Shown here: positions 32,486 to 38,960 of the stretch, one piece after another
Layout of the letters: the number at the start of each line of letters is the position of its first letter
How positions within the stretch are numbered: position 1 is the stretch's first letter
Assembly: GCF_000020005.1 (NCBI RefSeq)
Contig: NC_010718.1
Coordinates: 1,880,001-1,944,000, forward strand
From: Natranaerobius thermophilus JW/NM-WN-LF
Lineage (GTDB): Bacteria > Bacillota > Natranaerobiia > Natranaerobiales > Natranaerobiaceae
DNA length: 64,000 bases
Direction of reading: 5' to 3'
Program-made: the position numbers and the translations under genes
The notes under the pieces: model-generated
Seen by the model: only the letters and a program-made list of their open reading frames with translations
Database searches by the model: none
What the model was told of the DNA's origin: nothing

Positions 32486-33733
32486 TCATCTAGAATCTAA
32501 CTGTTCATCCTTCCTAGATAGTACTTTTCGTCCATCACCCATTAAAATAACCATTCCAAGTAATAATAGAATTATACCACTTGCCCCGATAACATTGGCT
32601 GATCCAAACCATCCTGCAAATATTCCTGCTAATCCTAAACTGATAATAGCTGTTAGTCGTATTAAAGCATTGACAAAACTCATGATACGACCTCTTACTT
32701 CATCTGGCGAATAATCAATAATGAGACTATAGAACGGCGCTTCATTCATACCATCACAAGCTCCTATAATAAAAGCCCAGATTCCTAAAATAATCATACC
32801 TGGATCAGTAAAGAAAATTAAATTAACAATACCAATTCCAAAAGTTGCTCCCAACAGCAAATGAAACCGCGGAGCCTGATTACCGAAGTAACCAGCTACC
32901 AGATTAGCTAAAATAGCTCCTAAAGCCAAGACGCTTTGTACGACTCCTAGTTGATAGGGACTTGCCTGTAGGATATTTTGAATATAATCTACCATTAGTA
33001 CTCCTGTTCCTCCGGCAAAGATACTGACAGCGCAGTATAAAGCCAACATACTAATCAAAACTCGAGAACCCTTAATAGCTACTAGACCTTCTGTTATTTC
33101 TTTTTTCAAATTAAATGTTTCCCGAGAATCCTGCTCTAAAAATATAGGCAAAAACAATAAAAACAAACCAGAAAAAAGAAATGCCAGAGAGTTAACACCA
33201 AAAACAGTTTGCAGTCCAAATATATCTATAAGTATACCGGCTATCCCTGGGCCAACTAACTGCATAATTTGTAATGTTCCACGTAACAGACCTGTAGCTG
33301 CCATATAATCTTTTTGTTCAACCAAAGCCGGAAGTATTGCCATATCTGTCGCCTGTCTAACTGTTGTACATACACCCATTATGGCAACTATTATTATCAC
33401 AGGTATCAGATCATTTACTATGAAAATTGCCAAAAGCATTAAAGATGCTCTTAAGATATCGAGAACTATTAAAACTATTTTTTTGTTTAAGCGATCTACC
33501 AATACTCCGGCTAGAGGAGACATAAATAAGGAGGGCAGTGCCTGAACACCTAAAACCAAACCTAATGCCATGGCCGAATCGGTCATTTCTGTAATAGTAA
33601 TTAAAATTGTCAGTCTAAAAAATACTGCTCCCAATGAACTTATGGCCTTAGCCAACCAAAACCAGTAAAACAACCTGTTCTCAAGTACCCAGCTATAGCC
33701 ACCTAAACCTTTCACAGGCTCAACACCTTTCAT
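32486..33733 (-). CDS. MFS transporter (exporter-like)
   Basis: This 415-residue protein has about 12 hydrophobic segments and resembles the MFS_3/enterobactin-exporter-type permeases. PLAGVLVDRLNKKIVLIVLD is the characteristic cytoplasmic loop after segment 2. The substrate is unknown. It lies 58 bp downstream of an ArsR-type regulator gene. The annotated ATG at 33733 has no ribosome binding site; a GTG six codons on is preceded by AGGTG and may be the real start. A short duplication at the 3' end truncates the reading frame. Confidence 0.85.
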   Translation of the reverse strand: MKGVEPVKGLGGYSWVLENRLFYWFWLAKAISSLGAVFFRLTILITITEMTDSAMALGLVLGVQALPSLFMSPLAGVLVDRLNKKIVLIVLDILRASLMLLAIFIVNDLIPVIIIVAIMGVCTTVRQATDMAILPALVEQKDYMAATGLLRGTLQIMQLVGPGIAGILIDIFGLQTVFGVNSLAFLFSGLFLLFLPIFLEQDSRETFNLKKEITEGLVAIKGSRVLISMLALYCAVSIFAGGTGVLMVDYIQNILQASPYQLGVVQSVLALGAILANLVAGYFGNQAPRFHLLLGATFGIGIVNLIFFTDPGMIILGIWAFIIGACDGMNEAPFYSLIIDYSPDEVRGRIMSFVNALIRLTAIISLGLAGIFAGWFGSANVIGASGIILLLLGMVILMGDGRKVLSRKDEQLDSR

Positions 33734-33791: not shown

Positions 33792-35210
33792 TTATGCGAA
33801 GGATCCGTCTGTTTGTTCTATTTCCACTCTACCAATAGGCATAGACAACCAGGTGGATGCCCTGGCTGTCCCTCCAAGTCTGGAGTTATCTCCTAAAATA
33901 ACCTGGAATTGCCCTGGACTTCTAAGTAATAAGTTTTCTGGTAACTCATCACCTTGTATTTCTGGATTAACACCAATGCCTAAAGCGGTCACCTTTTTTA
34001 AATCAGGCATTTCTTTTAAGTATTGTAGTAAACCTTCAGGACAAGAAGACGAATCTTCAATGGCTGTTACATGACCGCTCTCAATAAATATTTTAAGATT
34101 ATAAATTAGCTTTCCCCGAAACTCTTTACGCGGCACTACAATCTGACCAGATACTGTTTCTTCATCAAGAAATGAAAAGATAACACCTTCAGGTAAGGTT
34201 ATTTCACCGCCATTTTTTTTATCCTGAAATAACTCGCTATCTAAAGCTGGTTGTGAATCAGCTTTAAGTTTAAATTGTAAATGTGTACCTAGTTCATTCC
34301 AAATTGAGTATGTTTTTCCAGTTTTTAAAATTTCTTCAATATTTTTAGCTTCATTTTTTATTCTTTGCCTACTGACGTTCATGCCTTTCCAAAAGGCATC
34401 ATATAAAACTTGATAATCTACTAAATAACGATGCGAAAGCTGTGGTAAAGGATAAGCGACAAAGACGGTTTTTAAATCGGTACAATATTTATAATGTAAT
34501 TGAGCATCTACTTTTTTTAAAGTTTCTATTTTCTCTAAGGATACTTCTTTCAAATAATCTTCTGGTATTAAAGGTACAAAAACAACCCAGTAATCTAACT
34601 CTCGGTATAAAGCTTCGGTTAAAGGTGGGGTTTCCTTCAATATTTCCAATGGTGTTTCAGATATCATGGTTGCAAATGTTTCTAAATCAATATTATGGAC
34701 CATTCCTTCTCCTCCTGCTTTACGGCAACTCACAGTCATAGCGTGACAAAAATCCATCACTTCCGCTTCACCACTAAAAAGTACTTTTTCCCCGGGTTTA
34801 AGTGCCAATACGTCTGTTATAACCTTCTGAGCCAGATTTTCTAAATCAACGTTTAATATCTGCCTTCTCCGCCATTCTCTTAAACTTCCTTGAACTGCCT
34901 GACTAGCATTGTCAATGCTTTCAGAGGGACCCTGACCCAAGGATTGCCCTAAGAAAAAAGTTTGCGCAACGGCTTGATAATATTTTTCCTGAATACCTTG
35001 AATCATTCTGGTATCTACTAGTTCTATCAAACCTAGCTTTTTGAGTTCTTTTACATGGTAAAAAGCTTTAGCATGAGCCAGATCAAGTTCCTGAGAAATC
35101 TGTCCAACTGAAGCCTTTTTTTGAGTTAGTAAATCAATTATTTTCATTCGAAGGGGATGACCTAATGCTTTAATTGCTTCTGGATTGTTTAATAGCTGAT
35201 AGTCTTTCAA
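33792..35210 (-). CDS. ArsR-type regulator fused to inactive M29 aminopeptidase-like domain
   Basis: Residues 1-90 form an ArsR/winged-helix domain (IKALGHPLRMKIIDLLTQ, VGQISQELDLAHAKAFYHVKELKKLGLI). Residues from about 110 on resemble M29 aminopeptidases (AmpS/AmpT), with LKPGEKVLFSG, LPEGVIFSF and ALGIGVNP. The metal-binding positions seem lost: the expected PTEEVFTAP reads PEGVIFSF, the His of the HLALG-type block is Gln (FQVILG), and the H-x-D near the end is W-L-S. I infer a ligand-sensing, non-catalytic domain. The start is TTG at 35210 after AGGGGGA. It probably represses itself and the MFS gene. Confidence 0.75.
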   Translation of the reverse strand: MKDYQLLNNPEAIKALGHPLRMKIIDLLTQKKASVGQISQELDLAHAKAFYHVKELKKLGLIELVDTRMIQGIQEKYYQAVAQTFFLGQSLGQGPSESIDNASQAVQGSLREWRRRQILNVDLENLAQKVITDVLALKPGEKVLFSGEAEVMDFCHAMTVSCRKAGGEGMVHNIDLETFATMISETPLEILKETPPLTEALYRELDYWVVFVPLIPEDYLKEVSLEKIETLKKVDAQLHYKYCTDLKTVFVAYPLPQLSHRYLVDYQVLYDAFWKGMNVSRQRIKNEAKNIEEILKTGKTYSIWNELGTHLQFKLKADSQPALDSELFQDKKNGGEITLPEGVIFSFLDEETVSGQIVVPRKEFRGKLIYNLKIFIESGHVTAIEDSSSCPEGLLQYLKEMPDLKKVTALGIGVNPEIQGDELPENLLLRSPGQFQVILGDNSRLGGTARASTWLSMPIGRVEIEQTDGSFA

Positions 35211-35242
35211 TTTTATTCCCCCTAAAACCTGAAACTTGTTTA

Positions 35243-35260
35243 GCCTAAATTTTTTTAGGC
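35243..35260 (-). promoter_or_regulatory. Operator of the ArsR-type regulator
   Basis: GCCTAAA-TTTT-TTTAGGC is an 18-bp palindrome placed immediately after the predicted transcription start of the regulator gene. Confidence 0.6.
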
Positions 35261-35269
35261 GTCAAATTA

Positions 35270-35275
35270 ATTATA
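35270..35275 (-). promoter_or_regulatory. -10 box of the ArsR-type regulator gene
   Basis: TATAAT on the minus strand, ten bases upstream of the 18-bp palindrome. No clear -35 is visible. Confidence 0.5.
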
Positions 35276-35322
35276 ATATATTGAATTTAAAAAAATCAAT
35301 CATTGAGTTACATTGATGTAAT

Positions 35323-35410: not shown

Positions 35411-35447
35411 AAAAAACCTGCACTTCCTCTCTTACAGGAAATGCAGG
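35411..35447 (-). terminator. Terminator after the thioesterase gene
   Basis: CCTGCA..TTCCT pairs with AGGAA..TGCAGG, followed by T6-7 on the minus strand. Confidence 0.88.
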
Positions 35448-35495
35448 TAAATGTATTTATTTCCATATATTTGTTTTAGCTTTTAGCTATTCATT

Positions 35496-35867
35496 TTAGC
35501 TCAGTTTATTCATGAATTTGGATAGATTAATGATAAAACGCTCATGCTCACCTTCCCCGATTTTATTGTTGCTGTCATGAGCAGTTACTTCAAAAACCAA
35601 TCTTTTACCATCAACTTCTTTGAGAACGGCATTAACCTTAACTTTATCTCCCACAGGAGTAGGCGCCAAGTGTTTAACATTTACTAAAGAACCCACCGTA
35701 GCCCTGTCTTCATCTAGTTGAGAATCTACAAGCTTTAAAGCAGCTTCCTCCATAAAGGCTATCATGGCAGGTGTGGCTAAAACATCTACCGAACCACTTC
35801 CAAATTCCTTGGCTGAAAATTCTTTACTTACTTCCTTGACTATTTCATTTCTGTCACCGACTTGCAT
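35496..35867 (-). CDS. FlK-like hot-dog thioesterase
   Basis: This 123-residue hot-dog protein resembles the fluoroacetyl-CoA thioesterase FlK/YBR096-like group. Recognisable parts are VDVLATPAMIAFMEEAA, with the Thr and Glu that act in catalysis in the family, VKHLAPTPVGDKVKVNAVL, and the conserved histidine region GEGEHERFIIN. It should hydrolyse an acyl-CoA; the natural acyl group is unknown. The ATG follows AAGGAGTG. It lies downstream of the sensor kinase, separated by 46 bp. Confidence 0.82.
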   Translation of the reverse strand: MQVGDRNEIVKEVSKEFSAKEFGSGSVDVLATPAMIAFMEEAALKLVDSQLDEDRATVGSLVNVKHLAPTPVGDKVKVNAVLKEVDGKRLVFEVTAHDSNNKIGEGEHERFIINLSKFMNKLS

Positions 35868-35913: not shown

Positions 35914-37362
35914 TTAACATATCACTGAATGTAATACTTTATGTAATTCTGCCATACTGAAGGGTTTGGTTATGGCGGCCGCAAAACCATAATCTGAATA
36001 ATTTAAATGTATCGGATCTTCACTGTAACCACTAGCGGCTATTGCAGTTACACTTGGGTCCATGGCCTTAAGTTTTTTAATAGTTTCCTTACCACCCATG
36101 CCACCAGGAACTGTCAGGTCCAAAAAGACAATATCAAATGATTTATTTGCTTGCTTATATATGTTTACAGCTTCTTCCCCATTTCGTGTACATGTTACAT
36201 CAAATCCCATAGATGTTAGTAATTCGTAAAAAACCCGCCGTACTTTATCTTTATCATCCATTATGAGAACTTTTTTATTTGTTTGCATACTATTATAAAT
36301 CTCCTTGGGGATATTGCTTTCCTCTTTAACCATCTTTTTAGTAGAAGCTCGTAAATAAATATGAAAAGTTGTTCCTACTCCTTCTTTCGAATCTACAGTT
36401 ATGTAACCTCCATGCTTATTTATTATTGAAAAACTAGTAGCCAAGCCTAAACCACGACCATGTTTCTTAGTTGAAAAATATGGATCAAATATTTTTTCAA
36501 TAACTTCATCTGATATCCCGCACCCCTGATCTGCAAATGATACTTTAACATAAGCTCCTTTTTCTAAGGGAATCTTGGGATTCTGTCCATGGAAAGTAAT
36601 ATTCTGTGCTCTGACAGTTAAGGTGCCTCCTTCAGGCATAGATTGAATAGCATTGATAACTAGGTTATTGATTACTTGATTTATTTGTCCTTCGTCAACT
36701 TCCACAGGATATAAATTCTCTTCTATTTCCCATTGACAGTCTACTTTTGATCCTCTTAATGCAAAATAAACCGACTCAGTCAATAAATTTTTTAGACTGG
36801 TTGCTTTTAATACAGGTGAATCACCTTTAGACAATGTCAATAGTTGATGAGTTAAATATCCCGCCTGATCAAAGCTTTGTTCGGCATCTTCTAACAACTT
36901 GATTGTTTTTAAAGGTTTGTCTCCTAATGATTTTAAATAAAATTTAGCTAAAGATACATTCCCTTTACAGATAGTAAGGATATTGTTAAAGTCATGGGCA
37001 ATCCCACCTGCCATTAATGCAGTTGTGTCAATTTTATCTATCATCCGCTGTTGTTCTTCAGCCTGTTTGCGCTCGGTAATGTCCCAAAAAGATCCGATTG
37101 CCTCTAACCCACATTCATCATTTTCCATAATTTTATGTTGAGAGTAAATCCAATGATATTCACCTCTACGATCTTTCACTCTATATTCATTAATAATTTC
37201 TTCACCGATCTGACCTACTATTTTTATATTGTCTATGTCTTCGGGGTGGATTAATTTTTTCCAAAAATAGTCCATTTTTCCCAAAAATTTGTCGGGATCA
37301 TAACCGAGAATATTTTTAATATTTTGGCTTACATAAGTTGCTATTGGTCTATTATCAACCAA
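35914..37362 (-). CDS. Hybrid histidine kinase, C-terminal part after frameshift
   Basis: The frame begins inside a PAS domain (NILGYDPDKFLGKMDYFWKKLIHPEDIDN). A HisKA helix follows with phospho-acceptor His in MAGGIAHDFNNILT, then an HATPase (VINNLVINAIQSMPEGG, ADQGCGISDEVIEKIF, GRGLGLA) and a C-terminal receiver (VLIMDDKDKVRRVF, FLDLTVPGGMGG with the acceptor Asp). The true upstream sequence is in another frame, ending SEQRF; reading on in this frame gives TLISQTPAVIYSFKLVDNR. One missing T near 37,407 would join both into one protein. The ATG-type start given here has no ribosome binding site. Confidence 0.85.
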   Translation of the reverse strand: MVDNRPIATYVSQNIKNILGYDPDKFLGKMDYFWKKLIHPEDIDNIKIVGQIGEEIINEYRVKDRRGEYHWIYSQHKIMENDECGLEAIGSFWDITERKQAEEQQRMIDKIDTTALMAGGIAHDFNNILTICKGNVSLAKFYLKSLGDKPLKTIKLLEDAEQSFDQAGYLTHQLLTLSKGDSPVLKATSLKNLLTESVYFALRGSKVDCQWEIEENLYPVEVDEGQINQVINNLVINAIQSMPEGGTLTVRAQNITFHGQNPKIPLEKGAYVKVSFADQGCGISDEVIEKIFDPYFSTKKHGRGLGLATSFSIINKHGGYITVDSKEGVGTTFHIYLRASTKKMVKEESNIPKEIYNSMQTNKKVLIMDDKDKVRRVFYELLTSMGFDVTCTRNGEEAVNIYKQANKSFDIVFLDLTVPGGMGGKETIKKLKAMDPSVTAIAASGYSEDPIHLNYSDYGFAAAITKPFSMAELHKVLHSVIC

Positions 37363-38960
37363 TTTAAATGAATAAATAACTGCTGGAGTTTGAGAAATAA
37401 GAGTATAAAGCGCTGCTCACTCTTTCGAAGTCTTTTCTCCGTTTCTTTTAAATCTGAAATGTCTACAATGATTGCCAAAGTACCATGAAAATTACCTTCA
37501 TTATCGAATAAAGGTTGCAGTGTCAGGCGAACAGGAAATCTTTCACCGGATTTTCTTATCCGTTCAGTTTCAAAGGTAAATCCTTCTCGTTCCCGCTTTA
37601 ATTTGTTTAAAAAGTCTGGAATTTTCTTTAAATCAGAAGACACTATTATTTTTCTAACATGCTTACCAATCATTTCATCCCTTGTATAACCAAAGATAGC
37701 TTCAGCTCCGGGACTGAACTCTCTGATAATCCCATTAAGATCAGTAACTATCAAGGAAACTGTTTTGGCTGCATTTACAATTGATTTGTATAATTCCTCG
37801 TATTCTTTTCTTGCATTAATATCAATCTGAATACCTGCTGCTTTTATAGGGACTCTATTATTATCAAACTCTACTACATTTCCTTTACCATTAATCCACT
37901 TATAGCTACCCGATTTTGTTTTTGCTCGAAATTCAATATTAGCCCCTTCTTTTTCCCTTAGAAGTTTCTGTGAAATCTCTTTCTTTACCGATTCTAAATC
38001 ATCAGGATGGATTAACTTATGCCAGTCATTATAGTTTAATTTCAATTCATTGGGCTCGTATCCCAACATAGAATAAAAATTGTCACTTAAAAAAAATTCT
38101 CCAGTCTGTATATCCCAATACCAAAACCCATCTTCAATAGCATCCAGGAAATGATTAAAGATTTTACGAGTTTTCTTCAAGCTCTTTTCTGATTCTTTTA
38201 ATTTTGTGATATCACCAACAAAGCAGATATATTGGTCATTATCAATTTTGGAAGCCTGAAAATGTAACCATAATTTATTTCCATTTTTATGGTTAATTTC
38301 AAAAAATTCATCTACTTGACCATCATTAATTAGATTGTTAAATACTTTTGTATTAAAATTATAATTATCTGATGTCGTAATATCTATAAGAGATAGTTCC
38401 AGTAAATCTTTCTTTGAATATCCCGTCATTGTACAAATTTTTTGATTTATTTCAATAAAATTCCCTAGACTATTGATAATAAATACTCCAATAGGTGCTT
38501 TATCAAGGTATGTACTGAGTTTTTTCTCACTGGACCATAAACCTTCCTGACTTTGTCTTTGATTTGTAATGTCACGTCCAATTCCCACAATTCTAACTAC
38601 TTCTCCGTCTTTTAATATTGGCGATAAGATTGTCTGAAAAGTACCCTTACCTGTGGGGAATTCTAAACTCTCTTGGAAGTTAATTGTATCTTTAAGCTGA
38701 CAACATGTTAAAAACTTACTTACTATATAGTCTGCCTGTTCTTTTTCAAAAAGTTGATAAGGAGTTTTTCCTCGAAGTTCCTCTAAAGATATTCCAGTTA
38801 AATTTTGATGCTTCTTATTGTTTTTTAAGTAACAAAAAGTTCCATTTTTCTCTACACTCACAAAAAATATAGCATCATATGAGTGCTCAAAAACGGTTTC
38901 ATACTCCCCAAGTAACTCACTTTTACTATAATGTTCCTCTTCTTCTGTTACCTCAGGAAT
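37341..38960 (-). CDS. Multi-PAS sensor, N-terminal part of frameshifted kinase, AUU start
   Basis: Four complete PAS domains can be followed: FEHSYDAIFFVSV, DKAPIGVFIINSLG, AIEDGFWYWDIQTG and AKTVSLIVTDLNG, each with a PAC-like end. A fifth begins at KSEQRF and runs off frame, ending after 13-15 unrelated residues. The first canonical start (GTG 38861) lies inside PAS 1. The frame from the upstream TAA has no ATG, GTG or TTG, but ATT at 38960 is five bases after AAGGGGGGG. I take that as the start. There is no membrane segment, so the sensor is cytoplasmic. Confidence 0.75.
   Translation of the reverse strand: MPEVTEEEEHYSKSELLGEYETVFEHSYDAIFFVSVEKNGTFCYLKNNKKHQNLTGISLEELRGKTPYQLFEKEQADYIVSKFLTCCQLKDTINFQESLEFPTGKGTFQTILSPILKDGEVVRIVGIGRDITNQRQSQEGLWSSEKKLSTYLDKAPIGVFIINSLGNFIEINQKICTMTGYSKKDLLELSLIDITTSDNYNFNTKVFNNLINDGQVDEFFEINHKNGNKLWLHFQASKIDNDQYICFVGDITKLKESEKSLKKTRKIFNHFLDAIEDGFWYWDIQTGEFFLSDNFYSMLGYEPNELKLNYNDWHKLIHPDDLESVKKEISQKLLREKEGANIEFRAKTKSGSYKWINGKGNVVEFDNNRVPIKAAGIQIDINARKEYEELYKSIVNAAKTVSLIVTDLNGIIREFSPGAEAIFGYTRDEMIGKHVRKIIVSSDLKKIPDFLNKLKREREGFTFETERIRKSGERFPVRLTLQPLFDNEGNFHGTLAIIVDISDLKETEKRLRKSEQRFILLFLKLQQLFIHLNWLIIDQ

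Follow-up and report, generated by a model that had tools for sequence, protein, structure and literature searches.

Why should a peptidase fold sit behind a DNA-binding domain and next to a transporter gene? The question is raised by the gene at 33792–35210 (minus strand) of the window (the whole stretch of 64,000 nucleotides analysed), which the initial annotation read as an ArsR-type winged helix joined to an AmpS/AmpT-like M29 domain. The reading frame (472 amino acids) contains no stop, starts with TTG and is preceded by the Shine-Dalgarno sequence AGGGGG (35218–35223, −); no other full copy exists in the 3.19-Mb genome, where the remaining matches are confined to the helix-turn-helix (HTH) part. 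Both halves of the fusion are recognized by Pfam: HTH_20 at residues 16–65 (35016–35165, −; E 1.9e-9; 37.8 bits, cut-off 27), with HTH_5 also above its cut-off (28.6 bits, cut-off 22), and Peptidase_M29 at residues 122–385 (E 2.2e-7; 30.5 bits, cut-off 27). Among solved structures, the N-terminal part is matched best by PH1932, an ArsR homologue (1uly; 4e-11). Residues 72–93 (34932–34997, −) form a conserved linker, GIQEKYYQAVAQTFFLGQSLGQ, which is common to a wider MFS-linked HTH subfamily, and the putative sensor domain, delimited by Pfam, PDB profile and Foldseek, extends over about residues 122–469 (33804–34847, −). Two other descriptions of the gene are ruled out: that it is decaying, by the intact frame and the conserved HTH, linker, start and operator, and that it encodes an ArsR/SmtB metalloregulator, by a score of 37.3 bits with NCBIfam NF033788 (cut-off 55).

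The weak M29 match of the window protein is bridged by relatives that are linked to peptide-importer (Opp) operons, since these match M29 more strongly (L011, 3e-30; L012, 2e-33; L014, 9e-27). A profile of the C-terminal part of the family found AmpS (1zjc; 5e-19), PepS (7e-13), AmpT (5e-9) and NicX (1e-4) in the PDB. The same proteins were retrieved with AlphaFold2 models, the best Foldseek matches of which all belong to the M29 clan. With the full-length model (mean pLDDT 80, pTM 0.66) the top five matches were to PepS, AmpT and AmpS (8e-15 to 2e-12), with ArsR proteins ranking next; with the model of the M29-like domain alone (pLDDT 71) they were AmpT, PepS, AmpS and NicX (4.5e-16 to 7e-13), and no other structure came close. 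The TM-scores are modest (0.45–0.59).

Is the fold still an enzyme? In AmpII from L. monocytogenes (LmAmpII), E250, E316, H345, Y352, H378 and D380 are each essential for activity, and the mutagenic primers show that E250 is the second Glu in PTEE and that E316 belongs to LGE (PMC7023490). When 8 regulators were aligned with 14 members of a 320-amino-acid M29 branch, 5 M29 proteins of the classical type and 2 stand-alone relatives, all five alignable catalytic or metal positions (LmAmpII numbering) proved to be replaced in the window protein: E250 by Val343 (34182–34184, −), E316 by Ala409 (33984–33986, −), H345 by Gln436 (33903–33905, −) and H378-x-D380 by Trp454-Leu-Ser456 (33843–33851, −). 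Y352 has no aligned residue in the window protein and is missing also from the intact 320-amino-acid branch. The initial annotation had correctly named the His-to-Gln exchange in the HLALG-type block and the change of the terminal H-x-D to W-L-S, and had not listed E316. It had also reported a change of the PTEE-type Glu to Gly; the loss at the metal site stands but the residue does not, for G342 aligns with the first Glu, beside the true ligand position, and a PxG motif, to which G342 belongs, is ordinary in intact M29 relatives. It should be noted that model confidence is low at residues 446–454 and in the W-L-S loop, so that the alignment of W-L-S rests on sequence.

H378 and D380 are both lost in all eight regulators and both kept in 19 of 19 aligned relatives of the enzyme type, counts which, coming from related sequences, do not represent independent events. 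The other positions are lost to different degrees: E250, E316 and H345 are kept in L012 and L014, only E250 of these three in L010, L043 and L011, and none of the alignable metal positions in the window protein, L008 and L009. That other residues supply all the ligands looks unlikely, as H380 is the only His in residues 336–472 and nothing resembling HxD occurs there. Judged from its residues, the M29 fold of the window protein is supported as catalytically dead and devoid of its metal centre. In the same genome but outside the window (G000:C2, about 1573.9–1574.73 kb; L037), the sole ordinary M29 aminopeptidase-like gene that was found, adjoining a miaA-like gene, is broken over several frames, which may reflect either a pseudogene or assembly errors.

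A survey of 398 genomes of the phylum for M29-like proteins with an N-terminal ArsR domain yielded seven more, all in Bacillota. The HTH-linker-M29 layout is present in L008, L009, L010, L011, L012 and L014, and the L010 genome has another copy, L043; these are open frames of 460–506 amino acids, 25–30% identical to the window protein. In total there are 8 such proteins in 7 genomes, sparse but spread across the phylum in distant Bacillota. Searches around the relatives brought no additional regulators, a contig scan with full-length alignment returned mostly HTH-only relatives, and no further copy was found in the family (2 genomes) or the order (3 genomes) of the organism. Viral contigs yielded nothing related to the regulator or to two M29 groups, and plasmid records held HTH or M29 pieces alone, none covering 80% of the query. 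Two stand-alone M29-like proteins of family f104 without a recognisable winged helix (L013, 1450–2586, +; L015, about 1417–2500, −) have lost E250 (now K/R), H345 and HxD and kept E316, and appear to be further dead M29 proteins; in the M29 tree they fall among the regulators with weak support and long branches.

The genes beside the regulators divide cleanly: five regulators occur with an MFS transporter of the TIGR00900/EntS type and three directly upstream of oppABCDF, and the M29 tree supports both the MFS-linked (100/98) and the Opp-linked (97/94) set. In the window, where a transporter had been proposed next to the regulator, an EntS/Mef-like MFS gene (32486–33733, −; TIGR00900 1e-55) indeed lies 58 bp downstream in the same orientation, likely in the same operon. 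At L008, L009, L010 and L043 an MFS gene of this group lies immediately upstream of the regulator, in the same orientation. Among the compared set the best matches of each of the five partner MFS proteins are the other four. L011, L012 and L014 directly precede a peptide-importer operon whose products match SBP_bac_5 at about 1e-103 and, as best NCBIfam models, OppA, Opp3B/OppB and OppD, although below the equivalog cut-offs. Upstream of the window regulator, a strong terminator-like hairpin (35416–35448, −; 13-bp stem, T tract) follows an FlK-like thioesterase gene (35496–35867) and sets the regulator-MFS operon apart. Still further upstream, two overlapping reading frames (35914–38861, −) look like one PAS-histidine kinase-receiver gene, apparently split by a frameshift near 37341–37430.

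The regulator operon is preceded by a candidate sigma-70-like promoter, TTGATT-18-TATAAT (35270–35299, −), with 10 of 12 consensus matches, which taken by itself is no more than chance would give, sites of this kind being common. Directly downstream of its −10 element lies an operator candidate, CGCCTAAAAAAATTTAGGCT (35242–35261, −), and the 18-bp palindrome annotated within it at 35243–35260 is exact, GCCTAAA-N4-TTTAGGC. The genome has no second exact copy, and near matches are no more numerous than in the control, so that the regulon is probably local. Similar 20-bp palindromes, CGATCAAAAATTTTTGATCG, CGATAAAATTTATTTTATCG and CGTCAAAAATAATTTTGACG, are found upstream of relatives and define an operator class, CGnnnAAA-N4-TTTnnnCG with palindromic nnn, scored as 13 constraints. 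With at most one deviation it occurs in 13 of 40 regions upstream of HTH relatives versus none in 406 kb of background, and with at most two in 24 of the 40 versus about 5 background sites, numbers to be read with the provisos that the pattern was formulated after the sites had been viewed and that several loci are near-duplicates. The window candidate breaks one of the 13 constraints and is the sole such site in the 64 kb. The gap between regulator and oppA contains an exact class member at L012 (also L117) and weaker matches at L014 (L118) and L011 (L116), and upstream of the MFS-regulator operon there are two sites at L008 (L121) and one, with two deviations, at L009 (L115). L122 and L123 have no match to the class. 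Where present, the sites lie over or beside promoters.

The winged helix of the regulator belongs to the MFS-linked ArsR subfamily mentioned above, in which the sensor region varies; the same-strand MFS gene at 58 bp and the operator with one deviation place the window regulator within it. For the HTH-pattern relatives other than the M29 type (n = 41), an MFS gene lies directly downstream in 36 of the 37 with enough flank. At L044–L084 a TIGR00900-type MFS gene almost always follows the wHTH gene, the operator class is shared, and some of the proteins have a C-terminal RHH_8 match.

Taken together, homology, fold, family-wide ligand loss, transporter context and operator support the view that a winged helix and a catalytically dead M29 fold are joined in one protein next to a transporter, and with it the initial proposal that an enzyme fold has been reused in a regulator. 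As to function, we consider it fairly probable that the protein is a local, ligand-relieved repressor of the regulator-MFS operon with the pseudopeptidase as sensor, most likely of a peptide- or amino-acid-like ligand. The winged helix, as a dimer, would bind the palindrome immediately after the −10 element and so block the operon, acting as a one-component local repressor. The M29 fold, stripped of its two-metal centre, would bind a small ligand in what was once the substrate cleft; binding would free the DNA, and the MFS transporter then made would export the sensed ligand or a related compound. Repression is what we infer from the operator position alone; dimerisation, ligand binding, ligand identity and export direction are presumed.

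The M29 fold binds peptide N termini, as established for AmpS and PepS. A short peptide or amino-acid-like molecule is favoured as ligand because of this property and because one branch sits on peptide importers; more generally, sensing of something peptide-like is probable because the relatives adjoin drug-type exporters or peptide importers. With Opp operons beside three relatives, a peptide or amino acid is plausible. The same repressor might instead respond to a small aromatic, antibiotic-like or siderophore-like MFS substrate, with the M29 fold as a generic pocket. This we regard as unlikely, although the MFS partners match efflux models of the EntS/Mef/Tap type, the fold also includes NicX, a dioxygenase acting on a pyridine ring, and, among the HTH relatives in MFS cassettes, the majority have different sensor domains. 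Opp-type binding proteins, too, can carry non-peptide cargo. A non-peptide ligand does not fit well, however, with the three relatives that directly precede a full oppABCDF, the binding proteins of which fit the models of OppA much more closely than those of DppA or NikA, nor with the presence of the same operator class between these regulators and the opp operons.

The M29 domain could also be only a platform for dimerisation or structure with no regulatory ligand, given that M29 aminopeptidases are dimers (PMC7023490) and that the domains of the regulators are strongly diverged, with long branches in the tree. Yet the full two-part fold has been kept in eight divergent transporter-linked proteins, as expected of a sensor, and many related MFS-linked regulators manage with about 180 amino acids in all, which makes a mere platform quite improbable. 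Least probable of all is a bifunctional enzyme-regulator with a different activity or a remodelled metal site, for which E250, E316 and H345 of L012 and L014 could be cited but against which stand the loss of HxD in all eight regulators and, in the window protein, of every alignable residue, with one His left in the C-terminal subdomain.

A wider reading may be offered tentatively: dead M29 peptidases could be recurrent cytoplasmic peptide receptors, mounted as interchangeable sensors on an operator-sharing ArsR chassis and controlling uptake by oppABCDF in one branch and MFS export in the other. Since each regulator points to its own likely targets (opp importers, MFS exporters), the ligand is directly testable. 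The path from enzyme to sensor can be traced, L012 and L014 keeping part of the metal site and others having lost all of it, and the ArsR chassis might be used to build modular peptide biosensors.

How does the regulator compare with known systems? An ArsR-M29 fusion or an M29 pseudoenzyme sensor was not found in the open-licence literature searched. The M29 aminopeptidases AmpS, AmpT and PepS (PF02073; 1zjc, 2ayi, 4icq–4ics) share with it the full fold, domain-wide homology and the best structure matches; the regulator differs in the fused winged helix, in the loss of the five alignable metal/catalytic residues and in sequence (about 13–17% identity in structure alignments). NicX, the 2,5-dihydroxypyridine dioxygenase (7cn3, 7cup), belongs to the same fold clan and is matched by the family profile over its C-terminal half, but it has no winged helix and has HLD near its C terminus where the window protein has WLS. 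The closest solved ArsR-type proteins, PH1932 (1uly) and Phr (2p4w), have the winged helix and a following linker or wing like the regulator, whereas PH1932 (about 190 amino acids) lacks an M29-like domain. Evolution is known to have turned enzymes into ligand sensors, and regulators of the MocR/GabR kind, in which a winged helix is combined with an enzyme fold, are known. These, with EnuR as an example (PMC8739950), provide a functional analogy, an enzyme fold serving as effector-sensing domain behind a winged helix, but with a different fold, that of PLP-dependent aminotransferases, with a GntR-type winged helix and with the cofactor kept.
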